Virus record (IMG/VR): IMGVR_UViG_3300030430_004705
Span: 4,279 to 36,753 of that record
DNA from: a virus
Reading direction: 5' to 3' (one strand)
Length of the DNA stretch: 32,475 nucleotides
In this document: positions 4,173 through 27,341 of the stretch, piece after piece
How positions within the stretch are numbered: the stretch's first letter is position 1
How the letters are laid out: each line of letters opens with the position of its first letter
Notes under the pieces: generated by a model
What the model saw: only the letters and a program-made list of their open reading frames with translations
The model's database searches: none
What the model was told of the DNA's origin: nothing
Position numbers and translations under genes: made by a program

Positions 4173-4709
4173 ATGCTAGAAGATAATAGTCAGTTGACTA
4201 AAGAAACACAAGAACAGAATGTTCAAACTACAAATTCAGAAGAATCTGTTGATTATAAAAGCCTCTACTTGCAGGAAGTGCAGAATGCAAAAAAACTTCG
4301 CAAGAGATCGCAGGATGTAGAGAAAAAACTCACCTCTTTCGAGAAAAAAGCAGAAGAGGGTAGATTAGCACAACTTAAAGAGAATGAACAGTATAAAATT
4401 TTGTCAGATGAATTACAACAAAAACTAGATGCTGTTAATCCTTATAAAGAAAAGTGGGAATCTTATGAATCTCAGAAAAGAGAATCTTTACTTTCTCAGA
4501 TACCTGAGGCTGATAGAGAAATGTTAGCAACTAAAGACTTGCAAACATTAGAATACATTGTGAAAACACAAAGTAATATTACAACTAATAATCCTTCATC
4601 ATCTGTTGGGGTATCTAGAAATATCTCTACTCAAAAATCTTGGTCAGAAATGAATGAGCAAGAAAGAAGAGAATATTATAATTTTGCCTCTAAGGGTGGT
4701 AGGGTATAA
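4173..4709 (+). CDS. Probable capsid scaffolding protein
   Basis: The 178-residue protein is highly charged and almost entirely helical. A Glu/Gln/Thr-rich N-terminus leads into a long coiled coil (about residues 35-110), followed by a flexible Ser/Asn-rich stretch and a short C-terminal helix ending KGGRV. This composition and its place right before the major capsid gene are typical of scaffolds, which shape the prohead and then leave or are digested. An AAGGAG ribosome binding site precedes the ATG. No protease motif is visible here or nearby. The assignment is mainly positional and compositional. Confidence 0.75.
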   Translation: MLEDNSQLTKETQEQNVQTTNSEESVDYKSLYLQEVQNAKKLRKRSQDVEKKLTSFEKKAEEGRLAQLKENEQYKILSDELQQKLDAVNPYKEKWESYESQKRESLLSQIPEADREMLATKDLQTLEYIVKTQSNITTNNPSSSVGVSRNISTQKSWSEMNEQERREYYNFASKGGRV

Positions 4710-5882: not shown

Positions 5883-6407
5883 ATGGCAGAAACAAATTTA
5901 GTAGGAAGAACATCTCAAACAAAACTCAACTCAATGGCTGTTGATTTAATTGATGTAACACTTCTAACGACTATTGATACTCATGCTGATGGTGATGTTA
6001 TCTCTCAATCTATTGAAATACCTAACGCTGTTGCAGTAGAAGGTGGTACAGCAATTATTCAATCTATTTATTTACAAAATCAAGATAACGATGTAGAATC
6101 CCCTGCTTTAGAATTGGTATTTGCATCAAAAAATACAAATATTACTTCTGATATTGGGGATGGAGTAGAGGTAAATGATACTGATTTAATTACAGCAACA
6201 CTTTTAGGTAGCTCTACTGTTAGTAATTGGAGTTTATTAAAACCATCTGAAAATGAAATAGCAACTAAAACTAATATAGGTTTAGTTGTAAGAGCTGATT
6301 CTAATTCAAAAAGTATTTTTGTTCATACTATAAATAGAAGTGGGGCAAACTATACTCCATCAGGTACAGCAGTCTTAAAAGCTAAAATTGGTGTAGTAAA
6401 AGATTAA
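5883..6407 (+). CDS. Virion structural protein, possible capsid decoration protein
   Basis: The 174-residue protein is beta-rich with an alternating hydrophobic pattern and no catalytic motif. Segments such as HADGDVISQSIEIPNA and GTAIIQSIYLQNQ resemble a family of small structural proteins found next to the capsid gene in many marine phages. These probably decorate or stabilise the head. It sits just downstream of the capsid terminator with its own AAGGA ribosome binding site, and its stop overlaps the next start as TAATG. The family match is from memory of its pattern, so the role is inferred. Confidence 0.55.
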   Translation: MAETNLVGRTSQTKLNSMAVDLIDVTLLTTIDTHADGDVISQSIEIPNAVAVEGGTAIIQSIYLQNQDNDVESPALELVFASKNTNITSDIGDGVEVNDTDLITATLLGSSTVSNWSLLKPSENEIATKTNIGLVVRADSNSKSIFVHTINRSGANYTPSGTAVLKAKIGVVKD

Positions 6408-7537
6408 TGTTTCCTTCAAGACGAGCAACATTAGGTGGCGATGTATTCAGAGATGAATTTTCTGTATCTTTTGATGGTACTGATGAATTTATAGATACTA
6501 CTTTTGTGCCTAATTATGATGTCTTCACAATTTCAGCTTGGATAAATGTAAATACAGGTGGTAATAGAATTATTTTTGATGGTAGGGATAATGTTAATGA
6601 TGGTATGTTATTTTTTATAGGTTCAGATGAAAAAATTTCATTAAGAGTAAATAGTGTACAGGTTAATGCTCCATCTACAATAATTCCAAATGTTTGGCAT
6701 CATGTTGTGGGTACAAGTGATGGCTCTACAGGAAAACTATATTTAAATGGTGTTGAAATTAAAAAAAGAGAAGCATTAGGAACAACTATATCAAATATAA
6801 CAAGCGATGCTATGATTGGTGCTAGAAATCCATCAACTCCTGTATCTTATTTTAATGGAGAGATTTCTGAAATTGCTTTTTATAATAAAAGTTTATCAGC
6901 ATCAGAAGTAAAAACTATCTACAATGGTAGAGAGCCTTATAATCATAAAGAGGGTGTTTGTTATAACAATTTAGTAGCATGGTACAGGATGGGCGATGGT
7001 GCATTAGATAGATTTGGAATAACAGGATCTACAAGTTATCAAAATGGTGTGATAACAGATGTAGTCAATGCAAAGCTAGGTAATAATTTAGTTACGAATG
7101 GAGATTTTTCTAGTTGGACAAGCGATACACCTGATAGTTGGACTTTATATTCAGTTTCAACTGATAATACATATCATCGAGTAGGTAATGCTATAAGATT
7201 TAATAATACTACAGGTCAATTACAGGAAATAAGTCAAAATATTCTTACAGCAAATAAAATCTATAGAGTAACTATTGATTGCATAGCTTTTGATTCAGGT
7301 ACAGGTTTTAGAGTTCAGTCAGGTGATGATGGTACTAATCGACCCATTAACATATTAAGTAGTTCAGGTCTAGGTACTTTTGTGGGTTATTTTAAGGCAG
7401 AAGATCATAGATTTAGAATTATAAGAAATTCAGCAGTAGATGCTACATTTACAAATGTTACTTGTAGAGAAGTGTTAGGTAATACAGGAATAGTGCGTAA
7501 TATGACACCTACAAATATTATAGGTAATACTCCATGA
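6407..7537 (+). CDS. LamG-like lectin domain protein with C-terminal carbohydrate-binding-like domain
   Basis: Residues about 18-165 form a laminin-G/concanavalin-type jelly roll. Visible marks are the opening FDGTDEFID, FTISAWINV, NVWHHVVGTSDGSTGKLYLNGVE and the closing GEISEIAFYNKSLSASEVKTIY. A second module follows at about residues 227-360. It begins NLVTNGDFSSWTSD and looks like a galactose-binding (CBM4/9-type) sandwich. Both fold types bind sugars, so the protein probably displays glycan-binding surfaces on the virion. Its place next to head genes suggests a head fibre or decoration, but a tail fibre is equally possible. It has no signal peptide. Confidence 0.8.
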   Translation: MFPSRRATLGGDVFRDEFSVSFDGTDEFIDTTFVPNYDVFTISAWINVNTGGNRIIFDGRDNVNDGMLFFIGSDEKISLRVNSVQVNAPSTIIPNVWHHVVGTSDGSTGKLYLNGVEIKKREALGTTISNITSDAMIGARNPSTPVSYFNGEISEIAFYNKSLSASEVKTIYNGREPYNHKEGVCYNNLVAWYRMGDGALDRFGITGSTSYQNGVITDVVNAKLGNNLVTNGDFSSWTSDTPDSWTLYSVSTDNTYHRVGNAIRFNNTTGQLQEISQNILTANKIYRVTIDCIAFDSGTGFRVQSGDDGTNRPINILSSSGLGTFVGYFKAEDHRFRIIRNSAVDATFTNVTCREVLGNTGIVRNMTPTNIIGNTP

Positions 7538-8726: not shown

Positions 8727-8909
8727 ATGTTAGCAGAACTAATAGCAAAACAAATATTTTCAAAAGAAAATAAAGATAAGATTATATCTCAAATCAATAA
8801 AAATGTAAATATTCCTATGATTGGGGAAGATACTGAGGCTAAGGTGTTTGAGGCACTTTTTGAAGTAATAGAAGAAGCAACACTACAAGTATTAAAAAAG
8901 AATGCCTAG
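8727..8909 (+). CDS. Small helical protein of unknown function
   Basis: This 60-residue protein is mostly helical and mixed-charge, with a central NIPMIGEDTEAKVFEALFEVIEEA segment. I do not recognise a family with confidence. It lies 2 bp after the putative holin and overlaps the first basic small protein, so it is part of the same transcript. There is no membrane segment, cysteine cluster or catalytic motif. It could be a lysis regulator or a small structural protein. Confidence 0.6.
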   Translation: MLAELIAKQIFSKENKDKIISQINKNVNIPMIGEDTEAKVFEALFEVIEEATLQVLKKNA

Positions 8910-9099
8910 AAAAAAAAGAAAGAAAAGAGCAAAAAGCAGAGTTAATGAAGCAGGTAACTATACTAAACCTACACTAAGAAAAAGATTATTTTATAGAATA
9001 AAAGCAGGAACAAAAGGTGGTAGGGCAGGGCAATGGTCTGCAAGAAAAGCTCAGATGTTAGCTCGTGCTTATAAAAAAGCAGGTGGAGGCTATAAATAA
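8902..9099 (+). CDS. Small very basic protein (marine-phage type)
   Basis: In this 65-residue protein about 35 percent of residues are Lys or Arg. It opens MPRKKRKKRAKSRV and continues with NYTKPTLRKRLF and GGRAGQWSARKAQMLARAYK. The second half resembles small proteins I associate with marine phages and some of their hosts. The charge predicts tight nucleic acid binding. It overlaps the preceding gene by eight bases and is followed directly by another basic gene. A role in condensing packaged DNA or as an internal head protein is plausible but unproven. Confidence 0.75.
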   Translation: MPRKKRKKRAKSRVNEAGNYTKPTLRKRLFYRIKAGTKGGRAGQWSARKAQMLARAYKKAGGGYK

Positions 9100-9344
9100 T
9101 GGCTTTAAAGAAATCACAAAGAAGTTTAAAAAAATGGACTAAGCAAGAGTGGGATTATATAACTAAAGGTGATGCTAAAAAACCTAGAAGAAAGAGAGGT
9201 AGATATCTACCAAAGTCTGTAAGGAAAAGCCTTACAAAATCACAAAAGGCTTATCAAAACAGAAAGAAAAGACAGGCATCTGCTAAAGGAAAGCAGAGAG
9301 CTAAGTATACTAAATCAATAGCAAAAAAAGTCAGGAGAGCATAA
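9099..9344 (+). CDS. Small very basic protein, DUF5872-like
   Basis: Of 81 residues, about 32 are Lys or Arg. The pattern SLKKWTKQEWDY, then RGRYLPKSVRKSLTKSQKAYQNRKKR, then YTKSIAKKVRR resembles the family I know as DUF5872, found in marine phages and algal viruses. Function of that family is not established. The protein likely binds DNA or RNA by charge. It begins on the last base of the previous gene's stop and shares a base with the next start, so the basic genes are translationally coupled. Confidence 0.75.
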   Translation: MALKKSQRSLKKWTKQEWDYITKGDAKKPRRKRGRYLPKSVRKSLTKSQKAYQNRKKRQASAKGKQRAKYTKSIAKKVRRA

Positions 9345-9409
9345 TGTACCATAAAGGCAAAAAAAAGAAGAAAATAAAAAAAGTAAAAAAAGGTAAGAAA
9401 AAGAAGTGA
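9344..9409 (+). CDS. 21-residue lysine-rich micropeptide
   Basis: ATG at 9344 overlaps the stop of the DUF5872-like gene (TAATG) and opens a 21-codon frame ending TGA at 9407-9409. Fourteen of the 21 residues are lysine, with a start of MYHKGKKKKK. Upstream TCAGGAG is a good ribosome binding site. Its place inside a series of coupled basic genes argues that it is translated. It may be a DNA-condensing peptide, like small basic core peptides of other viruses. The alternative is a chance frame in A-rich DNA. Confidence 0.55.
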   Translation: MYHKGKKKKKIKKVKKGKKKK

Positions 9410-9415
9410 AGATAG

Positions 9416-9676
9416 ATGGCTAAATATAAAGGCAAGACAGTTCGTCTAAATAAACCATCTAGAATAAGAAAAGGTCAACCTTCTTATGGCAAGAAAAAGT
9501 CACAAGTATATGTTAAGAATTCTAGAGGTAGAGTTATTAGAGTTACCTTTGGAGATCCAAATATGAAAATAAAAAAATCTAATCCTGCAAGAAGAAAATC
9601 ATTTAGAGCTAGACATAAATGTGCAACTGCTAGAGATAAAACTACAGCAAGATATTGGTCTTGTAAAGCATGGTAA
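9416..9676 (+). CDS. Small basic protein with conserved GDPNM...RARHKC...YWSCKAW signature
   Basis: About one third of the 86 residues are Lys or Arg. The C-terminal half reads FGDPNMKIKKSNPARRKSF, RARHKC, then ARYWSCKAW, a pattern I associate with a small protein conserved across marine T4-like, T7-like and siphovirus phages. Two cysteines (in RHKC and WSC) and nearby His may bind a metal. The function is unknown. It has been seen near head genes in related phages, which would fit an internal head or prohead role. It closes the basic cassette and has an AGATAG leader. Confidence 0.75.
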   Translation: MAKYKGKTVRLNKPSRIRKGQPSYGKKKSQVYVKNSRGRVIRVTFGDPNMKIKKSNPARRKSFRARHKCATARDKTTARYWSCKAW

Positions 9677-16067: not shown

Positions 16068-16240
16068 AGGTAAAATTAAAAAAAGGCGAGAAACTTAGTT
16101 ATTTAAGCAATCATTCAGGTTTATCAATTAAAGATTGGACAGCCTTAAATCAAGGTAAACAAGTAGAATTAGATAAGATTCCAAATCTTATTAAGGATAA
16201 AATAAAAAAAATTAACTCTAAGAAAAAGGATAAAGAATAA
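16064..16240 (+). CDS. Small basic protein in the head-tail junction block
   Basis: The 58-residue protein starts MKVKLKKGEKLSYLSNHSGL, continues SIKDWTALNQGKQVELDKIP and ends in a lysine-rich tail. The start is taken at ATG 16064, which overlaps the previous stop as ATGA. An in-frame ATG at 16040 would add eight residues inside the preceding gene and is less likely. The fold may be a short helix-turn-helix-like bundle. The function is unknown, though its conserved site between tail terminator and tail tube genes suggests a structural or assembly role. Confidence 0.6.
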   Translation: MKVKLKKGEKLSYLSNHSGLSIKDWTALNQGKQVELDKIPNLIKDKIKKINSKKKDKE

Positions 16241-17268
16241 TGGCTAATGCAGTTTTTTCACCAAAAGATTTTAAAGTATTATTAGTTAAAGAAACAACTA
16301 CAGGAAGTACACCTACAATAGATTCAGGTAATGTTTGTAGTCAACTAGATGTAGACTCTGTTGGATTTCCAAGTTTAAATATAAATCAAGTTACAGCAGT
16401 CAGAACTCATGCAAATGGTGGTAGAATATTACATCAAGATGACTTTTTCCAAGATAATACAATGAGAGCTATTGAGCTTTCTATTTCAGGTACTTTCCAT
16501 AAAGATCAAGGTCATGCTATGCTTTTATATAGTTTAACTGATGAGGCTTATATTGCAGAAGATGGAAGTTTAACAAATGCAGTAGTTACAAGTGGGCAAA
16601 CAGGTGATACAGGTAAATATGGCGAGGCTGAGGCAAATAAAACTTTCAGTATTATATTAGCATCTCCTGATACAAATGATGGTAAAAATATTGTTTTATC
16701 AGGATGTGTTTGTACAAACTTTACATTAAGTGCAGACATGGGTACTGATGGTGGCTTATATAAATATAGTGCTACTGTATCAACAGGAAGAAAACCTACT
16801 TTTACAGGAGGTGCAAGTGAGCAAACACCATCTGTAACTGCTTATTCAGGAAATCATATTAGTATGTCAGGCATTGATGTTAGTGAAACAAAAATACATA
16901 GTTTAGCGAGTCCAATTCTTTCTTCTTTTGAAATAGCTATAGACCATCCTGCAGTTTATACAGGTGTAGACGAAACAAATGGATATGCTTGTTTTGGTAG
17001 AGGTGAGGAGCTTTCAATAACTGCCAATGCTACTATAAAGTATGACTCTCTTACTAGAGATTTATTTTCCACATTTGAAACAGGTGCAGTTGATACAGCA
17101 GATGCATTCACAATAAATCAAAATACTGACTCTAATGCATCTATCCAAATACCAAGTGCTGTATTGACAGATGTATCTTTTAATGAGGGAGATGTTATGA
17201 TGTTAAATGTTGCACAAAAAGCAGTTGCAGGTGACTCAGGAGCTGTTCTTACTATTGACCTTACTTAA
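16240..17268 (+). CDS. Major tail tube protein
   Basis: The 342-residue protein has features of siphovirus tube proteins: an N-terminal strand segment (NAVFSPKDFKVLLVKETT), alternating beta strands such as AIELSISGTFHKD, a central helix-poor core, FEIAIDHPAVYTGVD, and ELSITANATIKYD leading to a VMMLNVAQKAV end. These subunits stack as hexamers to form the tail tube. It sits before the chaperone, tape measure and hub genes, exactly where the tube gene is expected. It is longer than a minimal tube protein, so it likely carries an extra domain, perhaps Ig-like, exposed on the tail. Confidence 0.8.
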   Translation: MANAVFSPKDFKVLLVKETTTGSTPTIDSGNVCSQLDVDSVGFPSLNINQVTAVRTHANGGRILHQDDFFQDNTMRAIELSISGTFHKDQGHAMLLYSLTDEAYIAEDGSLTNAVVTSGQTGDTGKYGEAEANKTFSIILASPDTNDGKNIVLSGCVCTNFTLSADMGTDGGLYKYSATVSTGRKPTFTGGASEQTPSVTAYSGNHISMSGIDVSETKIHSLASPILSSFEIAIDHPAVYTGVDETNGYACFGRGEELSITANATIKYDSLTRDLFSTFETGAVDTADAFTINQNTDSNASIQIPSAVLTDVSFNEGDVMMLNVAQKAVAGDSGAVLTIDLT

Positions 17269-17282
17269 TAAATAGGAATAAA

Positions 17283-17600
17283 ATGAAAAAAGATAAAAAA
17301 CCACTTGAATTATCTACAGGCAGAAAGATAGAACTTAAAGAAATGTCTATAGATGATATAGATTATTGTCAAGATTTGACAGTAATAGTTTATGGAGAAG
17401 ATAATAATGTAGAGCATATTAAAAATGTTTCTAAATCAAGAACAGCTTGGATAAGGCATGGATTGATTGGAGGAGATTTTAAGAATTGGTCTACAAATGT
17501 AAAAGGGCAACCTTCTGATTCTGTATTAAAACAATTAAGTGAAACTGAAAAGAATGATCTTATGACTATGATACAGGAATATCAAAAGTTGGGGGAATAG
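17283..17600 (+). CDS. Tail assembly chaperone, short form (gpG-like)
   Basis: The 105-residue acidic-basic helical protein (LELSTGRKIELKEMSIDDID at the start, LSETEKNDLMTMIQEYQKLGE at the end) lies between the tail tube and tape measure genes. That is the conserved place of the gpG/gpGT chaperones that coat the tape measure during tail assembly. Its last codons are TTG GGG GAA TAG, and a long hairpin begins six bases after the slippery stretch. Most ribosomes would stop here and some would shift back one base to make the long form. Confidence 0.8.
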   Translation: MKKDKKPLELSTGRKIELKEMSIDDIDYCQDLTVIVYGEDNNVEHIKNVSKSRTAWIRHGLIGGDFKNWSTNVKGQPSDSVLKQLSETEKNDLMTMIQEYQKLGE

Positions 17601-17649
17601 AATCCCTCGTACTATCTCTAAATATATTGATAGGTGATTGGTGCGAGGG
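17591..17649 (+). promoter_or_regulatory. Predicted -1 programmed ribosomal frameshift element
   Basis: The slippery stretch GGGGGAA (17591-17597) is followed at once by the in-frame stop TAG (17598-17600). After a six-base spacer a hairpin starts. 17604-17620 pairs with 17631-17649 through 17 base pairs (three G-U) with single-base bulges at 17635 and 17638, around a ten-base loop (17621-17630). The outer six pairs (CCCTCG with CGAGGG) are G/C-rich. P-site GGG re-pairs perfectly after a one-base backward shift. The A-site codon pairs less well, so this is not the textbook XXXYYYZ heptamer. The new frame is open into the downstream gene. Confidence 0.75.
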
Positions 17650-18058
17650 TTGCAATTTTCATAGTTTTCCTTATAATGCTCAAATTCCTATTAATACAGG
17701 TAATGGTTATCCTACAAAAACATTTAGAACAGAAGATGATGTATGGCAAGTAGTTAATCTACTTATACAAGAGGTTAAGAATATGAACGAACAAGAGGGC
17801 AAAAGTTTTGATGTTGCTAAAGCAGTTTCACAACAACTGCCCTTTTTTAGTTGCAGAAACATTATTTACAGTTCTGAATTTCAAAAAGATATAGCCAAAT
17901 ATATGTATTGTAAAGAATTTGGTGTATCTCCTTATCAAGGTGATTTTGGTAAACATCCTAATAAATGGATATTAAAATCTCAAATTATAAAGTCTTCTTT
18001 TCATAAATTAGAACAAATGCATTATGATAAAATTAATAAAAAATCTAAGGTAGCTTAA
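17627..18058 (+). CDS. Tail assembly chaperone, T-domain made by -1 frameshifting (gpGT-like)
   Basis: As a separate frame this would be 143 residues from a TTG at 17627, with no ribosome binding site and with its start inside the frameshift hairpin. It is in the -1 frame relative to the short chaperone and stays open back past the slippery site. It is therefore best read as the extension of a fusion of about 258 residues, 17283 to 18058. In phages such as lambda this T-domain recruits tail tube subunits to the tape measure. Residues include WCEGC, KYMYCKE and KHPNKWILK, and the paired cysteines could bind metal. Confidence 0.75.
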   Translation: MIGDWCEGCNFHSFPYNAQIPINTGNGYPTKTFRTEDDVWQVVNLLIQEVKNMNEQEGKSFDVAKAVSQQLPFFSCRNIIYSSEFQKDIAKYMYCKEFGVSPYQGDFGKHPNKWILKSQIIKSSFHKLEQMHYDKINKKSKVA

Positions 18059-18059
18059 T

Positions 18060-20822
18060 ATGTCTGATCTTCGAGATTTGCTGAGGGAAAGAGCTAGGCA
18101 AAGAAAAGAAAGAGATAAAGAAAGAAATTTAGTAGATAAAAATACTTCATCTGAAGATAAAAATACTAGAAGCAGAAAAAAAAATGCAGAAGCTACAAAA
18201 GAGCAGACTAAAGCTATTAAAGAAAAAATAGCTTTAGAAAAAAAAGTAGTTGAACTTAAAGAAAAATTAAAAAAACAAACAGATGATGAAATAAAACTTG
18301 CTCATAGACTTCTTGTAGCAGATCAAAATAGAATAGATGCTTTAAGATTAAAGCAAAGAGAAGATAATAAAAGATTAAATATAGAATCTCAGTTAAGTCT
18401 TCAGCTAGAAAGAGATATAGAGTTATCAAGAAAAATAGAGTTGCAAGAAAAAGAAAGGATTGCTACTCAAAACAAACTTGTAAGAGAGAGAGATAAAAAT
18501 AGAAATAAATTAAAATTATTACAAGAAAGAGTTCATAGCTATGGCTTAGAGCTTAAAAAAACAGCAGGTGGTAGTGAACTTTTAAGAAAAGCATTAAAAG
18601 GTGATGCAATAGCTTTTCAAAAATTATCTAGAGAAATAGAAAAGGCTAGAAAAGAACAAGGTAAATATGATAGAGCAGGGGTATTAACAACTAGAGGAAC
18701 TAGAAATGTTCATGGAAGTTTATCTGTATTAAGAAGTAAATTATTATTAGCATCATTTGCTTTTGGTGGTGCTACTAGAATATCTAGAACATTTACTGAA
18801 GCATCTAAGCAACAAGAGAGTGCAGTTGCAAGAGTAACAAATGTTATAAAAGCTCAAGGATATATTTCAGGAGTTACCACAAATGAAGTTAAAAAATTAG
18901 CCTCTTCATTACAAGAATCAACAGGTGTAACAGATGAACTAACTTTAGAATCATCTGCATTATTATTATCTTTTCAAAACATAGGATCTGAAATATTCCC
19001 AACAGTTCAGAAAGCAGTATTGGATATGACATCTGCTTTAAATGGTGGAAGAATAACAACAGAAACTTTAAAAACTCAATCTATACAATTAGCTAAAGCC
19101 TTAGATGATCCAATAAAAGGATTAAGCAGTCTTGCTAGATCAGGAACAACCTTTGACAAAAAGACTCAAAATCAAATAAAAACATTAGTAAAACAAAATA
19201 AAACTTTAGAAGCTCAAAAGATTATACTAGATGCTGTCAATAGACAGTATGGTGATTCTGCATCACTAGATACATATGAAACTGCTCAAAGAAAATTAGA
19301 TAGTGCAATAGGAGATCTTAACGAAAGAATTGGAGAATTTCTTACCCCCACTCTAAAAGAAACAAATAAACTACTTGCAGAATTTATTAATTCAATAAGT
19401 TTAAAAGATATTGCAGAAACTGCTACATCTATTGGAATTGTTTCAGGATCTATTTTGATATTAAATAAAAGAATGAGAGATTTAATATTTACATCAGCTA
19501 TACTTACAGGGGGATTATCAGCCTTAGCTAAAGTTACATTAGGATTGGGTGCAGTATTTGGTGTTAAAAAACTTTTAGATTATACTGATGCATTTTCATC
19601 TTTAGATGATAGCACAAAAAGTGCTACAGAGTCTACAAATGCATATAGAGAGTCATTAGGAAAACTTACTGATGAAAGATTACAAAATTTATTAGCTTTT
19701 GATAAACAAAGACTTGCAGATATTGATTCTGAGAAAAAAGCTATAGAGGAGGAAATAAGGCAATTATATATAAAAGCAGGTCTTGTAGATGAAAATAATA
19801 ATCTTACAAAAGAGGGTGCTATATATGCAAGAAATAACTTGAAAAACAATGAAACATTAAATCGTCTTCAAGAGAGATATATAGTAATATTAACTAATAT
19901 AAAAGATACTGAATTTGTTATAAACGCTAGAGCAAATGCAAGTGATAGAAATAGAAATGAAAACCTTGAAGAAGTATTAAAAAAGTTAAGAGAACAAGAA
20001 AAAATATTACAAGAGAAGAAAAAGGTTGATCAAGAATTAGTTAAGATTCAAATACAGTTAGGTCTTGTTACTGTAGATACCTCTGATGCATCTATAGAAG
20101 CTATAGAAGAACAGATTAAAGCAAATGATAGACTTGTAAAATCTCAAAAAAGACGAGATGAAATACAAAAACTATCTTTTCAATTAGTGTCTGAACTAGC
20201 AACACTTCAACATACTCTAACTATTAATAGCTTACAAGACATAAATGCTTTAGAAGAGGCAGAACTTAATAGAATTAAAAACACCTCTGAATATAAAATG
20301 GCTGTAGCAATGGGTGATCAGAAAAAAATAGAGTCTTTAGAGAAAAAAGCTAAAAATGCATCTTATGATGAAAGAGTTAAAAAGTTCAATGCAGATCAAA
20401 ATTTAGCAAAAGCAAATATACTTATTTCTTTAGCACAATCTGTAATGAAAGCATACTCTGATTATGGTTTTCCTGCAGGTTTACCTGTTGCAGGATTAAT
20501 GGGAGCGATATCTTTAGCACAACTATCTGCAGTTAACTCTGCTCCTAAACCTGAAAAATATCAATATGGTGGTCTAGTTGGTGGTAATCTACACTCAGGT
20601 GGTGGCACAATAATAGAAGCTGAAAGAGGTGAATTTGTTATGAGTAGAAATGCTGTACAAAACTTTGGTATAGCTAATATGGAAGCTATCAATAATGGAA
20701 GTGCTAGTCCTGTAAATATAACATTTAACAATCCTGTTATGTCTGAAGATTATACAGAAGATGTAATTATACCTCAAATTAAAAGAGCAGTACAGCGTGG
20801 TGCTGATATAGGAGTTAGTTAA
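18060..20822 (+). CDS. Tape measure protein
   Basis: The 920-residue protein sets tail length and guides tail tube assembly. The first ~200 residues are a charged coiled coil. Next comes the conserved region with FGGATRISRTFTEASKQQES, TGVTDELTLESSALLLSFQNI and a following ARSGTTFDKKTQNQIKTL, typical of tail tape measure proteins. Hydrophobic stretches near 450-500 and 790-830 may insert in the host membrane during injection. The end, YGGLVGGNLHSGGGTIIEAERGEFVMSRNA, is the usual C-terminal type. At roughly 0.15 nm per residue, a tail near 140 nm is expected. It overlaps the hub gene by one base (TAATG). Confidence 0.93.
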   Translation: MSDLRDLLRERARQRKERDKERNLVDKNTSSEDKNTRSRKKNAEATKEQTKAIKEKIALEKKVVELKEKLKKQTDDEIKLAHRLLVADQNRIDALRLKQREDNKRLNIESQLSLQLERDIELSRKIELQEKERIATQNKLVRERDKNRNKLKLLQERVHSYGLELKKTAGGSELLRKALKGDAIAFQKLSREIEKARKEQGKYDRAGVLTTRGTRNVHGSLSVLRSKLLLASFAFGGATRISRTFTEASKQQESAVARVTNVIKAQGYISGVTTNEVKKLASSLQESTGVTDELTLESSALLLSFQNIGSEIFPTVQKAVLDMTSALNGGRITTETLKTQSIQLAKALDDPIKGLSSLARSGTTFDKKTQNQIKTLVKQNKTLEAQKIILDAVNRQYGDSASLDTYETAQRKLDSAIGDLNERIGEFLTPTLKETNKLLAEFINSISLKDIAETATSIGIVSGSILILNKRMRDLIFTSAILTGGLSALAKVTLGLGAVFGVKKLLDYTDAFSSLDDSTKSATESTNAYRESLGKLTDERLQNLLAFDKQRLADIDSEKKAIEEEIRQLYIKAGLVDENNNLTKEGAIYARNNLKNNETLNRLQERYIVILTNIKDTEFVINARANASDRNRNENLEEVLKKLREQEKILQEKKKVDQELVKIQIQLGLVTVDTSDASIEAIEEQIKANDRLVKSQKRRDEIQKLSFQLVSELATLQHTLTINSLQDINALEEAELNRIKNTSEYKMAVAMGDQKKIESLEKKAKNASYDERVKKFNADQNLAKANILISLAQSVMKAYSDYGFPAGLPVAGLMGAISLAQLSAVNSAPKPEKYQYGGLVGGNLHSGGGTIIEAERGEFVMSRNAVQNFGIANMEAINNGSASPVNITFNNPVMSEDYTEDVIIPQIKRAVQRGADIGVS

Positions 20823-23800
20823 TGGCTTTTGTAGATGAATTAAAAGGATCTAACACAACATTAGGATGTAGAGTAACATTTAGAGCTGATCCAAATAATC
20901 CTATACAATTATCAATGGCAGATATTGATTCTCCTACATATAATAATTATCCTTTTTTAAAATCTTTTCCTTCTATAAAAGAATCTATAAATATAGAAAC
21001 TAAGAAGTATTCAATATCTTCAGTAAAGTTATCTATATTTAATAGAAAAGTTCATACAAATACTATGTTTAGTGATTTGTTAGATACAGAATCATTTAGA
21101 ATAAATCAAGATGTTGAAATAAGATATTTTGCAAATAATAAAGTTGGTACAGGTGATAGTTATTTAGCATATGTAGGTAAAATAAAATACACAACACATG
21201 ATCAAAATACTGTAACTATAGAGTTAGAGGATATATCTCAGCAATTATTATCTACAAAAATACCTAAAATGTATACACCAACTGATGATTTAATACTTGA
21301 AAAATCTAGAAACATTCCATATCCAATGATTTATGGAACAGTACCTAAAAGTCCTATAGTTTATTTATCTAATCGAGATGGATTTAATGATTCTTATACT
21401 ACAAATAGTGCATTTTATATGGATAATCCATCTTCAACTTTAAAAAGTAACAATTTTTCTAAAATATTTAGAATAAATAATGGAAATAATGTTTATTTTT
21501 CTTCAAAAATTTTTGTAGGTCAAGATGGTCAATACATGGATATATCAAGATATTCAATAAATGGAAGTAGCTATCCTTTTTCTAACAATGAACCTCCATC
21601 AAATATTGATAATGATAATTTTATAATCTCTTCTCCTAATTCTTCATTTATAAATTTAAATTCACTATCATATTCAGAACAAGATGAGGTTGTAGGTTAT
21701 ACAAATTCTTATCAGAGTAATGACGTAAAAAATAAAATATTAAGAGGATTATTAAAAAGAACACCTATTAATTTAGATTTTTTTAGTCATAAAGGAGGTG
21801 ATCTTGATAATTATAACTCTTCATGGGCAATATTAGATGATAATGTAGAGGCAATAACAGTAGAAAGCGATGATTTGGTTTATCAAGACAATAATTATTT
21901 AAAAAATGTTAATGAAGAATTGCCTGATATTATAAACAACAGTAAAACAATAGCTTTATGTTCTAGAAATGGTACTGATTTATCTTCAAGACAAAACATC
22001 ACATATATCACATACGAACTTATTAATGATGCAGAATCTCATGCTTTTAAAATGACTTATAATGATAGTGTTTTTGATTTTCCATGTGAAACATTTTTAA
22101 TTGGAGCAATGAGATTAAAAAATATTGAAGGAGTAGAGGGTGAATTAACTGTTAACAGAGTTTATTTAACATTATCTTTAAAAAATGCACTTGAACCTAC
22201 AGAAAATTATGATTATGGTGAAGGAGATGTAGTTAGTCTAGGTAATGAACCTATTTTATGGGATGAATCTTTAGAAATTGCATCAATTTTTCAAAAAGGA
22301 AAGTCTTTTATATTTTTAACAAACAATCAATCTACAACTTGGAATTCAGATGGACAAAGTAATTGGTATGATTATAATGGAGAAGATAATGATCAATCTA
22401 GCTCTTTATCTAATAATTGGAGTAATATTAATTCATTTAATGAAGTAGGAGTAATATCTCCTCGTTTAAATTCTGTTAGATCTATTGATAATGATCCTCA
22501 ATTTACAGGATTTGATTTTTTCAAAATGAATGGATTTAAAATATTCCAAAATTCTATTATAAGAAATTTTTGGGATAAAGAATATTATGCAGATATAAAT
22601 GGAAGAATAAATAGTTATATTAGTGAATACAGTCCTTCAACTAAAATAATATATGATATCATTTCTACAGAATTGCAAGTTGATTCATTAGATGCTCTTA
22701 GCAATATTAGTAATTTTGATACTACTAAAAAATTTGCTTTTACACAAAATAAAAGTATAGATACAAAAAAATTAATAGAAGAACTTTCTTCTTTTTCTAA
22801 TATATTTCCAATTTTTAAAAATAACAAACTTTCATTTATTAATATTGAAGAATCTTATGAAAGCAATCAATACAATCATATAATTCAATCAGAGGATATT
22901 TTTTCTTATTCATTTTCAAGAACTGATGTAAGAGAAATATTTAGTTCTTTAAAGTTTAATTATTATTATGATTTTTCTAATGAAAATTATACAAAATCAA
23001 TAACAATAAATGCAGAAACAATATTGAATGGAGATAGAAATGATCAGGGATATAGTAATAATTTTTACAATACATCAAATTTAGAAAAGACTTTAGATTG
23101 TAGATTTATTTATGATGATGCAACTGCTGAAAGTGTAGCAAAATATATTCTTTTAAATAATTGTAATCCTCATAATACAATTCAACTAACATTACCTTTA
23201 TCTTACATAAATATAGAATTAGGAGATATTGTAAAGTTTGATAAACTTATAAATGATCTAAAAATATATGGAGAAGATTATACTCAATATGTTTATTCAG
23301 TAAATGGTCAACAAAAATACAATTTGTTTTTAGTTGAATCAGTCGAAAAAAGACAGAAAAATATAAAATTAAAATTATATCAATTGCATAATTTAAAACC
23401 TGAACCCCAAGAACCTCCTGAAGAGGTTCGTTTTTGTCCTGAACCAACTGATAATAACTTTGATCAAGAATCATTTAATATATTTTATGATCCTTCAATA
23501 GATGGAGGTTATGATTCTGTAAACAATATATTGTATATTCCTGATAATTCACAATGTGAGCTTGGAGGTGATCCTGTTGTTACAGGTTGTACTAATCCTG
23601 ATGCAGTTAATTATAACTCTACAGCAAATGTAGATGATGGAACTTGTATCTTAGCAATAGATGAACCAAAAATAGGTAGCTTAATATCAGATGATGTTTT
23701 AAGGTTTACTTTTCAAAGTAATGTACAAGATTATATATCTTTTATTCCATCTGAATTACATGAAAATACATTGAACTATGATGTTAGTATGAATGCTGAA

Positions 23801-25810
23801 TCAAATTATGAAACAATATATCCTAGAATGAGAATTCAATTAAAATTACCACATTTATGGGATGAAAATAATAATTTTATACAAGTTTTAAATGATAGAA
23901 AATTTGAAAGAGTAGGTTTTAATTTAAATACTTTAGGTAAAACGTATAATGTAGAATTCACAATAGATGATATAATAGGATTAGAGCCTAATTTATTTTC
24001 TACTAACCCATCTATAGATCCTTACGACCTTTTTCATAAAAAATTAGTTGAAGATATTATTATTGATGGAGGATTAGAAGAAGTGAGTTATTATGTAAGT
24101 ATAACTTCTGCATCTTCTAGTTTAGATTATTATTTAGGTATATCTATACCAATTTTAAATGCTAGTGACTTTCTTAGTGAAACTAATACTCCTAATCCAA
24201 CATCAGGAGATTTTGCAGTTCCTCATATTAGATATGGATACACAACCCCTGCAATTTTTGAAGATCAGTTTTATGATGAAATAATAACTTTATATGCAAA
24301 TTCTCCTATTCATGGAGCTTATAATATTCTTAATATTGTTGAAAACAATGAAGAAATAAATTTATTTCCTGTTAATACAAGAACTATTGAAAATAATATA
24401 AGTAGTTTTTTTAATATTATTTATCAATTTAAAAATCTTAATGGTCATAGTGATAGTAGCACAAATTTTGATCAAATTAATTTATTTACTGAAAGTAATG
24501 GAGATTTTTTATCTTTACATGATTTTTATAGAGTAAATACAGATCCAACCATTTCAGGACAAAATGCATTTAATGCATTGACAGAAGTTGGTAATGATTT
24601 AAATACTTTTTTTCAAAGCAATCTAAACGATGCAGAAAGAAGAACAAATTATTATATTAGTATTGGATCTACAGATGAAAGTTTTGGAGATAATAGACTA
24701 GTAAAAAATAAAGAAGCTACATTTACTTTTAAAATATCAGAAAAATTTGATTATATTTTTAATGATTATGATAATTCTTATGAAGGAATGCCTCTTCTTG
24801 CTAATGGTTCTAGTCATTCTTTAATTAGAACACCTACTGTTAATTTTGCTATTTCCAATGATCCAATAATACAACAATTTTTTGCACAGGGTAATTTTAT
24901 GAATAATGCTATAAATCAATTAAAAGATTATTCAGGTGCATCTTCTACTAGTTTACTTGAAACAGTTATGATTAATATTAGTATTGTTAAATCAAATTCA
25001 AGTTCATCTCCAAGTTTTACAAGTAGATTAGAACAAGAAGAGGTTATCCCATCAACAATAGTTAACGATGGAAGCTATACTCAGTATACTGATGTAGGTA
25101 TTGAAAGAGAAAGACATAGAATATCTTTAAAAGATTTATCTAACCTATTTCAAAGTGATATTAATGAAGATTTTAAAAAAGAGATATCTATAAAATTTAC
25201 ACCTGATACTGTAACTGATCCTAATTTATCTGATTATTATTTTGTTAAAATAGAAAGAGATTCAATAAAGAAAAATTTTATAAGTACATTTAGTGGAGTT
25301 GACACCTCTTACACTTTATATAGTAGTTCGTTAGTTAATGTTACAAGTCAAAGTCTAAATCAAACTTATTATCGTTTCAGTATTATAAATGGAAATTATG
25401 CATTAAATTTTACAACAACAGGTGGAGAAAACAGTATATTTGATAATCAGTTTGATACCTATTTTGTAACAAATTTACATACATTTAGATTGCATAGTGG
25501 ATCTAAATTAGAACAAAATAGAACATTTACTGAGCCTGTTGAAATTGTTCCTGCAGATGTAGTAACTGTAACAAATAAAATTATGTTTTTTGTTGTAAAT
25601 GATCTAAATATATCGTCTAGTATAAATGAAAATCAGATAGAAGCATTTTTTCTAGGAAATGGACAACTTAATAATAGTGAAGTTGCTATTGATATTAGTC
25701 TTTTTGATAGTATAGCTTATTATGGTATTGCAAATACTTATGGAAAACTTTTAAATATAAAAATACAAGATGATAATCATGCTCTTCCTGATGAAGGAGA
25801 AACAGATTGA
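20822..25810 (+). CDS. Giant tail hub/tip protein with C-terminal host-recognition extension
   Basis: In this 1662-residue protein the first ~850 residues look like a tail hub or baseplate protein. There is an opening FRADPNNPIQLSMADID, an IRYFANN strand, an ELEDISQQLLST segment and IPYPMIYGTVPKSPIVYLS. A Pro/Glu-rich linker (about 861-869, PQEPPEE) follows. Residues 922-942 carry a cysteine-bounded GCTNPDAVNYN...DDGTC element, common in repeats of marine Bacteroidetes surface proteins. About 700 beta-rich, Asn/Ser/Asp-rich residues complete it and probably contact the receptor. It lies directly after the tape measure, the normal place of tail tip genes. Confidence 0.75.
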   Translation: MAFVDELKGSNTTLGCRVTFRADPNNPIQLSMADIDSPTYNNYPFLKSFPSIKESINIETKKYSISSVKLSIFNRKVHTNTMFSDLLDTESFRINQDVEIRYFANNKVGTGDSYLAYVGKIKYTTHDQNTVTIELEDISQQLLSTKIPKMYTPTDDLILEKSRNIPYPMIYGTVPKSPIVYLSNRDGFNDSYTTNSAFYMDNPSSTLKSNNFSKIFRINNGNNVYFSSKIFVGQDGQYMDISRYSINGSSYPFSNNEPPSNIDNDNFIISSPNSSFINLNSLSYSEQDEVVGYTNSYQSNDVKNKILRGLLKRTPINLDFFSHKGGDLDNYNSSWAILDDNVEAITVESDDLVYQDNNYLKNVNEELPDIINNSKTIALCSRNGTDLSSRQNITYITYELINDAESHAFKMTYNDSVFDFPCETFLIGAMRLKNIEGVEGELTVNRVYLTLSLKNALEPTENYDYGEGDVVSLGNEPILWDESLEIASIFQKGKSFIFLTNNQSTTWNSDGQSNWYDYNGEDNDQSSSLSNNWSNINSFNEVGVISPRLNSVRSIDNDPQFTGFDFFKMNGFKIFQNSIIRNFWDKEYYADINGRINSYISEYSPSTKIIYDIISTELQVDSLDALSNISNFDTTKKFAFTQNKSIDTKKLIEELSSFSNIFPIFKNNKLSFINIEESYESNQYNHIIQSEDIFSYSFSRTDVREIFSSLKFNYYYDFSNENYTKSITINAETILNGDRNDQGYSNNFYNTSNLEKTLDCRFIYDDATAESVAKYILLNNCNPHNTIQLTLPLSYINIELGDIVKFDKLINDLKIYGEDYTQYVYSVNGQQKYNLFLVESVEKRQKNIKLKLYQLHNLKPEPQEPPEEVRFCPEPTDNNFDQESFNIFYDPSIDGGYDSVNNILYIPDNSQCELGGDPVVTGCTNPDAVNYNSTANVDDGTCILAIDEPKIGSLISDDVLRFTFQSNVQDYISFIPSELHENTLNYDVSMNAESNYETIYPRMRIQLKLPHLWDENNNFIQVLNDRKFERVGFNLNTLGKTYNVEFTIDDIIGLEPNLFSTNPSIDPYDLFHKKLVEDIIIDGGLEEVSYYVSITSASSSLDYYLGISIPILNASDFLSETNTPNPTSGDFAVPHIRYGYTTPAIFEDQFYDEIITLYANSPIHGAYNILNIVENNEEINLFPVNTRTIENNISSFFNIIYQFKNLNGHSDSSTNFDQINLFTESNGDFLSLHDFYRVNTDPTISGQNAFNALTEVGNDLNTFFQSNLNDAERRTNYYISIGSTDESFGDNRLVKNKEATFTFKISEKFDYIFNDYDNSYEGMPLLANGSSHSLIRTPTVNFAISNDPIIQQFFAQGNFMNNAINQLKDYSGASSTSLLETVMINISIVKSNSSSSPSFTSRLEQEEVIPSTIVNDGSYTQYTDVGIERERHRISLKDLSNLFQSDINEDFKKEISIKFTPDTVTDPNLSDYYFVKIERDSIKKNFISTFSGVDTSYTLYSSSLVNVTSQSLNQTYYRFSIINGNYALNFTTTGGENSIFDNQFDTYFVTNLHTFRLHSGSKLEQNRTFTEPVEIVPADVVTVTNKIMFFVVNDLNISSSINENQIEAFFLGNGQLNNSEVAIDISLFDSIAYYGIANTYGKLLNIKIQDDNHALPDEGETD

Positions 25811-26190
25811 ATATAAAATATGGATTAGGACTTGTTGAGATAGAAAATATAGATTCTATGCAAAAAATAGAAATAAATTTTGTAGGAAATTTTTTTATAA
25901 ATAGACCAAATCTTAGTTTTTTATTACATAGAAAAAGAAATAAACTTATATTTAGTCCTTTAACAAAAATACTTTCTAATAATTTATTATTTAGATATAA
26001 TGGAATAATTAATATAACAAATTGCACTATAGGAAAAAGATCAGTTAAAATTATTAAAAATAATATAGACAGATACAACAAACTAGAATCTACTTGGGAT
26101 ACTTTAAATTCTGAGTGGCATGATTATAACATGGATGATAAAATAAATACAATTAAAAAAAGTAAAATAGAAAAAATGTCAAAAAAATAA
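25807..26190 (+). CDS. Small tail-associated protein of unknown function
   Basis: The 127-residue protein starts at TTG 25807, overlapping the hub stop, with an excellent AAGGAGA ribosome binding site at 25794-25800, which supports the unusual start codon. The first half is hydrophobic and beta-like (KIEINFVGNFFINRPNLSFLLHR is the region), and the second half is basic and helical with WDTLNSEWHDYN. No membrane helix is clear. It is coupled to the hub gene before it and the dockerin protein after it, so it is likely a tail tip assembly or structural factor. No family recognised. Confidence 0.65.
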   Translation: MNIKYGLGLVEIENIDSMQKIEINFVGNFFINRPNLSFLLHRKRNKLIFSPLTKILSNNLLFRYNGIINITNCTIGKRSVKIIKNNIDRYNKLESTWDTLNSEWHDYNMDDKINTIKKSKIEKMSKK

Positions 26191-27341
26191 TGAATTATAA
26201 TAGCTTTTCAAAACCAAGATTTTACATAAACACTTTAGAATTTTTATATAATAAAGGATTAATAAATACAATTCATCCAATATTTTTATCTTCAAATTGG
26301 CATAAACATATAGAGTATACAGGACAAAATTTTGAATTTACTGTATCCAATTCAGGATTATTAAAAGATGTTAATTATATAATGCTTATAGGTGTTGGTG
26401 ATTCTCAAGTAACTACTACTAGCAGTTTTGAAGAAAATCCAATAAATGATAATGTTGGAGATACAAAGATATACACCATATCAGATTTTTCTTCTGATGT
26501 TAATTTAACTACTTTTAGTCTAAGTGTAAGTGGATCTATATCAGGAATATCTATTGGAAATTATTATGATTTACCATATAATCCTGATCTTGGAATAAAA
26601 AAAACAATATCATATGATGGAGTAGAATCCCAAGAAACTATAGGAGGAAAATCATTTTCAACAAACTATGGATCTTCTAAACCATACAATCCTTTCAGAA
26701 CATATAGATCAGAATATGATTCAAATCAACAATCTTTTAGATTAGGAGATATAAATCAGGATGGAGTTCTTAACATAGTAGATATAGTTAATATAGTAGG
26801 TTATGTTTTAAGTCAAGATAATCAAGCATACGATGAAATTCAAAAACAAATAGCTGATGTAAATCAAGATGGGTTAGTAAATATTGTAGACATTGTAACT
26901 ATAGTTGGTGCAGTTCTTAATGAATCAACACTAGGAGATATAATAATTAATGAGGCGATAGCATTATCTAGGTCTTCTAGCAGAACATCTTATCGAGATA
27001 TAGATACTCCTTCAGGAAGAAGATCTTATGATATATCTTATTCATATATTGGAAGTGACTCTAGTGGTCAAAATTATATTTTTCCAAGAGATTTAAATTA
27101 CTCAAATGATTTAAGAAATCTTTCTGATACTTCAGATGCAATATATGATAGTGGTAAATCAAATCTATATACATCTGTTATAAATAAAACAATAGGATCT
27201 CACATACCTTTTGTTTTTTCTCTTGATGGAGAAAATTCATCAGAACTAATGTTAGCAAGATTTAAAGAAAACTCATTTGAATTTACTGAAAAAGCTCCTA
27301 ATGTTCATAGTGTTAACTTTGGTATAAGGGAAGTGTGGTAA
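26190..27341 (+). CDS. Terminal tail protein with two dockerin-type calcium-binding repeats
   Basis: The 383-residue protein holds two dockerin type I-like repeats: GDINQDGVLNIVDIVNIVG (186-204) and ADVNQDGLVNIVDIVTIVG (222-240). In each, Asp/Asn at positions 1, 3, 5, 9 and 12 of the loop (D187, N189, D191, N195, D198; D223, N225, D227, N231, D234) can bind calcium. Around them are segments SYGSSKPYNPFRTYRSEYD-like and RRSYDISYSYI, and an end ARFKENSFEFTEKAP... IREVW that resembles other phage tail proteins. Dockerins bind cohesins in cellulosomes. Here they may join tail subunits or adhere to host surface proteins. It is the last rightward gene. Confidence 0.8.
   Translation: MNYNSFSKPRFYINTLEFLYNKGLINTIHPIFLSSNWHKHIEYTGQNFEFTVSNSGLLKDVNYIMLIGVGDSQVTTTSSFEENPINDNVGDTKIYTISDFSSDVNLTTFSLSVSGSISGISIGNYYDLPYNPDLGIKKTISYDGVESQETIGGKSFSTNYGSSKPYNPFRTYRSEYDSNQQSFRLGDINQDGVLNIVDIVNIVGYVLSQDNQAYDEIQKQIADVNQDGLVNIVDIVTIVGAVLNESTLGDIIINEAIALSRSSSRTSYRDIDTPSGRRSYDISYSYIGSDSSGQNYIFPRDLNYSNDLRNLSDTSDAIYDSGKSNLYTSVINKTIGSHIPFVFSLDGENSSELMLARFKENSFEFTEKAPNVHSVNFGIREVW

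Follow-up and report, generated by a model that had tools for sequence, protein, structure and literature searches.

The sequence considered here (the window) is a stretch of viral DNA 32,475 nt long, positions 4,279 to 36,753 of IMG/VR record IMGVR_UViG_3300030430_004705, with a GC content of 29.8%. Within it, two overlapping reading frames, here called G and T, lie between what is presumably a tail tube gene and the gene encoding a tape measure protein, giving the order tail tube, G, T, tape measure (Table 1). The first of these genes has no match in PHROGs or Pfam, so its name comes from its place in the gene order. As the original prediction had it, the T frame is exactly -1 relative to G and open across the junction: its last upstream stop lies at 17555, and from 17558 it runs open to 18058, overlapping the end of G by 40 nt. 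Since the frame opens only at 17558, any slip from G into T must fall within the 40 nt before the G stop. There, frame 0 reads CAA AAG TTG GGG GAA TAG, which places a GGGGGAA heptamer in the phase G_GGG_GAA with the stop of G immediately behind it, also as predicted.

Table 1. Features of the G/T locus, in coordinates of the window.
Feature	Position	Strand	Basis or remark
Upstream neighbor, presumed tail tube (major tail) protein	16240..17268	+	Position and relatives
G, frame-0 ORF, putative tail assembly chaperone, 105 aa	17283..17600	+	Ends with TAG 17598-17600
T, -1-frame open region	17558..18058	+	In the predicted G-T fusion, read from 17597 to TAA 18056-18058
Slippery heptamer G_GGG_GAA	17591..17597	+	Same place and phase in 92/92 sites
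Frame-0 stop TAG	17598..17600	+	Sequence; directly 3' of heptamer
Spacer from heptamer to stem, 6 nt (TAGAAT)	17598..17603	+	Fold; best stem 4-6 nt past heptamer in 91/92 sites
5' arm of conserved 9-bp proximal stem	17604..17612	+	Pairing conserved; see text
Distal half of hairpin: 8 further pairs, two bulges, 10-nt loop 17621-17630	17613..17640	+	Not conserved
TTG within loop, first start codon of T frame	17627..17629	+	Judged unused; no Shine-Dalgarno sequence; codon-like conservation upstream
3' arm of conserved proximal stem	17641..17649	+	Overlaps codons of the CEGC motif in T frame
Downstream neighbor, tape measure protein	18060..20822	+	PHROG 27166, E 9.9e-27

The predicted structure of G (AlphaFold, pLDDT 91) resembles those of known chaperones. 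In a comparison with viral models, the highest-placed hits that bear a name (probability 0.96-1.00, E only 0.007-0.03) are all tail assembly chaperones, from Bacillus phages, Gordonia phages, and Mu (FS-gp41), and in a comparison with the PDB the tail assembly chaperone of HK97 (2OB9) ranks first, albeit not significantly (E 1.9). By this resemblance, G appears to carry the tail assembly chaperone fold. Neither G nor T of the window has a match in PHROGs, Pfam, or NCBIfam, and their relatives give weak hits only. The chaperone gene changes fast, and a match to a curated family is helpful but not defining. The model of T (pLDDT 90) has no meaningful match in the PDB. The T family (17591-18055 and its relatives) has an invariant C-x-G-C, followed by FPY or YPY, as well as an invariant PFFxC. 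The family matched nothing in the libraries used; possibly the motifs form a metal-binding knuckle. The codons for CxGC also form the 3' arm of the stem.

Relatives of the locus were gathered in two ways. A search with the tail tube protein led to 45 IMG/VR loci, of which 44 extend to the chaperone gene. In every one of the 44, a G ORF adjoins the tail tube gene and its end is overlapped, by 22-67 nt, by a -1 frame that continues for 413-458 nt wherever the contig is long enough. The second query was an alignment of 33 T proteins, from which the best 80 of 322 loci were taken. Removal of duplicates left 92 distinct sites, the window and 91 IMG/VR relatives. The T query started at the heptamer, and one search pattern contained the CxGC motif, so loci without either could be under-sampled. 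However, this bias cannot affect the 44 loci to which the tail tube protein by itself had led, and these fully agree. No relatives turned up when G and T were each used as a single-protein query against viral contigs, or when G/T was compared with named phages at the DNA and protein levels. Species genomes gave no relative of T, and Rfam gave no match.

The mere presence of GGGGGAA says little. The window contains one copy where 1.09 would be expected by chance, and the case must therefore rest on place, phase, and conservation. All 92 sites prove to have a heptamer in phase at the same place (GGGGGAA in 79, GGGGGAG in 9, and GGGAAAC in 4). GGG makes up 4.4% of the Gly codons in the window's genes, yet it is used at 88 of the sites, the exceptions being the four with GGGAAAC. 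The heptamer is conserved beyond what the protein requires. In seven relatives (L084, L088, L091, L109, L114, L120, and L168), a stop in the -1 frame lies directly 5' of the heptamer, so the entry into T cannot lie further upstream. One might suppose that the run of five G's, present in 88 of the 92 sites, causes RNA polymerase to slip, producing mRNA with an altered number of G's and no need for the ribosome to change frame. This is exceedingly improbable, given that the four relatives with GGGAAAC have no such run and that a hairpin is conserved at the spacing appropriate to ribosomal slipping. Upstream of the heptamer there is also an AGGA (17575-17578) reminiscent of a Shine-Dalgarno sequence. 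Sites of this kind (-5 kcal/mol or below) are only mildly enriched, occurring in 27% of relatives versus 14% of controls, and no claim is made for it.

How, then, is T translated? The alignment of 33 T proteins is conserved from its first codon, with 21 invariant columns. Between the G stop and the TTG at 17627, where only T could code, mismatches among the 28 sites with the stop adjacent to the heptamer amount to 0.36, 0.125, and 0.44 at T codon positions 1, 2, and 3, a skew that is the signature of translation. Codon-like conservation upstream of the TTG counts against initiation there. The codon itself, as predicted, lies within the hairpin (in its 10-nt loop) and lacks a ribosome binding site: its duplex energy is +0.9, where nine other starts of genes in the window range from -3.9 to -7.5. 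So far as can be read from the sequence, the downstream frame of the window has no start of its own.

It could be argued that T is nevertheless a separate gene, initiated at the TTG or by re-initiation past the G stop, with no frameshift at all. The TTG does exist, 27 nt past the G stop, and in one subclade of nine of the 92 sites, which does not include the window (L090, L092, L094, L095, L100, L101, L105, L122, and L148), a sequence resembling a Shine-Dalgarno site (GAGGG or GAAGG) stands before T codon 21, which is an ATG (GTG in L148); a shorter, independent T protein is therefore possible in those relatives. But 66 of the 92 sites have no ATG, GTG, or TTG anywhere in T codons 3-22, T is conserved from the heptamer onward, and if T were a separate gene, the in-phase heptamer would have no cause to persist. 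We consider a separate T gene very improbable. The original prediction had named longer gaps between the frames and a strong ribosome binding site before 17627 as observations that would speak against a frameshift; the frames overlap in every relative, and the binding site is absent.

When 17598-17655 is folded (RNAfold), the result is the hairpin originally described, which begins after a spacer of six bases and has an energy of -19.9 kcal/mol. In it, 17604-17620 is joined to 17631-17649 by 17 pairs, and there are two single-base bulges. All of 200 dinucleotide shuffles fold less well (z -4.12). To compare sites, a helix was scored if it started 4-8 nt past the heptamer, and the score was set against those of control stretches. 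The stem lies above the 95th percentile of the controls in 80 of 92 sites; a few relatives (L092, L104, L122) have a weak stem. Among the stop-adjacent sites, the proximal nine pairs are held in 94.7% of cells (40-70% if the partner is slid), while the distal eight pairs, with their bulges, are held in 48.6%. The idea of an extended, bulged hairpin thus survives in part: the proximal nine pairs are constrained, but the bulged distal half is not conserved, and it is the 9-bp proximal stem that is the conserved, presumably stimulatory, element.

Some changes in the stem are matched. Three proximal pairs in the stop-adjacent group have changed on both sides, including G-C in place of A-U in the window and U-A in place of C-G elsewhere. 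In the other groups the stem sits one base out of this register, and a change in one arm goes with a change in the other: GCCUCC is found with GGAGGC or GGGGGC, and CCCUCA mostly with GAGGG (UGAGGG). In L113 and L115, CQGC codons disrupt the usual pairing, and an alternative 3' arm, GUUUGAGGC, pairs with GCCUCAGAC. Failure of relatives to conserve the stem had been named as a further sign against the prediction; what is seen instead is a proximal stem that is kept through compensatory changes. The shuffle controls of the stem are favorable but not extreme, because the 3' arm encodes conserved Cys and Gly residues, and the covariation signal is modest because the same arm overlaps the conserved CxGC codons.

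The stop adjoining the heptamer had suggested that slipping might be assisted by it. In one group, TAG adjoins the heptamer in 28 of 28 members, and a stop comes immediately behind the heptamer also in Rhodobacter phage RcCronus and Dinoroseobacter phage vB_DshS-R4C (both GGGAAAC-TGA) and in Gordonia phage BetterKatz (GGGAAAA-TAG). These three phages have tape measure proteins related to the window's, but they differ in having GGGAAAN heptamers and in being known as annotated sites. Rous sarcoma virus and barley yellow dwarf virus have the arrangement as well (PMC4373837), and from tests in bacteria of the HIV-1 slippery sequence followed by a stop, slippage after translocation has been proposed (PMC4373837). 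However, over the 92 sites the stop stands at +0 relative to the heptamer in 28, +3 in 1, +15 in 46, and +21 in 17; that is, 64 sites with the same kind of heptamer and stem place it 3-21 nt further on, and so the signal does not depend on the stop. Furthermore, a stop at this position lowered slipping in published tests. Behind the HIV-1 slippery site, it reduced frameshifting by about 70% in mammalian cells, and in an earlier bacterial system frameshifting was lowered, and abolished by extra RF2, an effect attributed to competition by release factor (PMC4373837). Reduction is the opposite of assistance. The TAG can also be explained by the coding in the T frame of Ile or Val followed by Glu or Asp. 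With adjacency confined to 28 of 92 sites, slipping driven by the TAG finds little footing and must be called unlikely.

A different role for the stop can be imagined. Perhaps, though we would not wager on it, the TAG of the stop-adjacent group helps to set the ratio of G to GT through competition between RF1 and slipping, the ratio then tracking the level of RF1, while the sister groups, with stops 15-21 nt away, set their ratio without it. If this were so, the family would constitute a natural paired test of slipping before versus after translocation. The stop-adjacent and stop-distant relatives make a ready set for a reporter comparison.

A start at TTG 17627, slippage during transcription, and slipping driven by the stop were each set aside as the main explanation. 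What was predicted from the window, a -1 frameshift signal in a tail assembly chaperone gene, is supported by the gene order, the fold of G, the in-phase heptamers at all 92 sites, and the stem. From the anatomy of the locus, its conservation, the codon pattern, the stem, and the resemblance in fold, we judge it highly probable (about 0.95) that a programmed -1 ribosomal frameshift yields G and G-T tail assembly chaperones. According to this model, most ribosomes would read G and terminate at its TAG, while a minority, held by the hairpin six nt downstream, would slip back one base. The slip would probably be tandem, with tRNA-Gly on GGG and tRNA-Glu on GAA re-pairing on GGG and GGA, the latter by way of a G:U pair. 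The -1 product, ...QKLGE-IESLVLSLNIL..., would have a total of about 258 aa. A tandem slip should leave a junction peptide of QKLGE followed by IESLVLSLNILIGDW, and a slip in the P site alone one of QKLG followed by GIESL. Presumed likewise are the efficiency of the frameshift and its role in assembly.

The G/GT frameshift is conserved among long-tailed phages (PMC5009743). As with gpG/gpGT of lambda (GGGAAAG; PMC5009743), the locus would produce a short G and a longer G-T by a slip in the -1 direction, the heptamer lies near the 3' end of G, and the genes precede that of the tape measure protein. Unlike lambda, the window has GGGGGAA, a stop directly after it, and a G and T without a detectable sequence match to chaperone families. 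By analogy with lambda, the role of G may be to bind the tape measure protein and that of the T part to recruit the tail tube subunit.

The heptamer had been thought atypical and the poor re-pairing of its A-site GAA odd. Neither holds for a tail chaperone gene. Among about a thousand annotated chaperone sites of actinophages, GGGGGAA is the sole motif of the "fivetwo" type (PRFect, PMC10885494), and it has already been proposed for them that the Glu tRNA re-pairs on GGA with a G:U pair (PMC10885494). These sites from SEA-PHAGES actinophages share with the window the identical heptamer in a chaperone gene and the same expected re-pairing. The actinophages, however, are high in GC, whereas in the window, at 30% GC, GGG is a rare codon. 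Since GGGGGAA is kept even here, high GC alone does not account for the heptamer. GGGGGAA has also been proposed as a -1 site in the tail genes of corynephage phi16 (PMC5506516), and the sequence of that phage (KY250482) reads GTG GGG GAA GAC TAA, matching the window in heptamer and phase, with its stop 3 nt past the heptamer. It differs in that an H-type pseudoknot was proposed for phi16 (PMC5506516), and the window shows only a hairpin. In Arthrobacter phage Wollypog, no clear heptamer of such a kind was found near the G stop. The GGGGGAA site and the adjacent stop are already documented in other phages, and the window, from an uncultivated phage family, is a solid but ordinary example.

The analysis gives a likely function to a pair of genes that is common in environmental virus contigs and that PHROGs, Pfam, and NCBIfam do not recognize. 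In annotations, such G/T genes should be given a joined G-T product.

A few other features of the window were noted in passing. Three consecutive genes at 8902-9676 encode small, very basic proteins (65, 81, and 86 aa) with no match in Pfam. The tail protein of 1662 aa encoded by 20822-25810 (Phage-tail_3) carries one GCTNPDAVNYNSTANVDDGTC motif, a repeat familiar from secreted proteins of marine bacteria. A protein of the tail region (26190-27341) has a type I dockerin domain (Pfam PF00404, E 1.5e-6), which seems unusual in a phage structural gene. Finally, 6407-7537, two genes past the major capsid gene, encodes a strong Laminin_G_3 / ConA-like lectin domain (E 1.5e-25), and its product is perhaps a carbohydrate binder on the surface of the virion.
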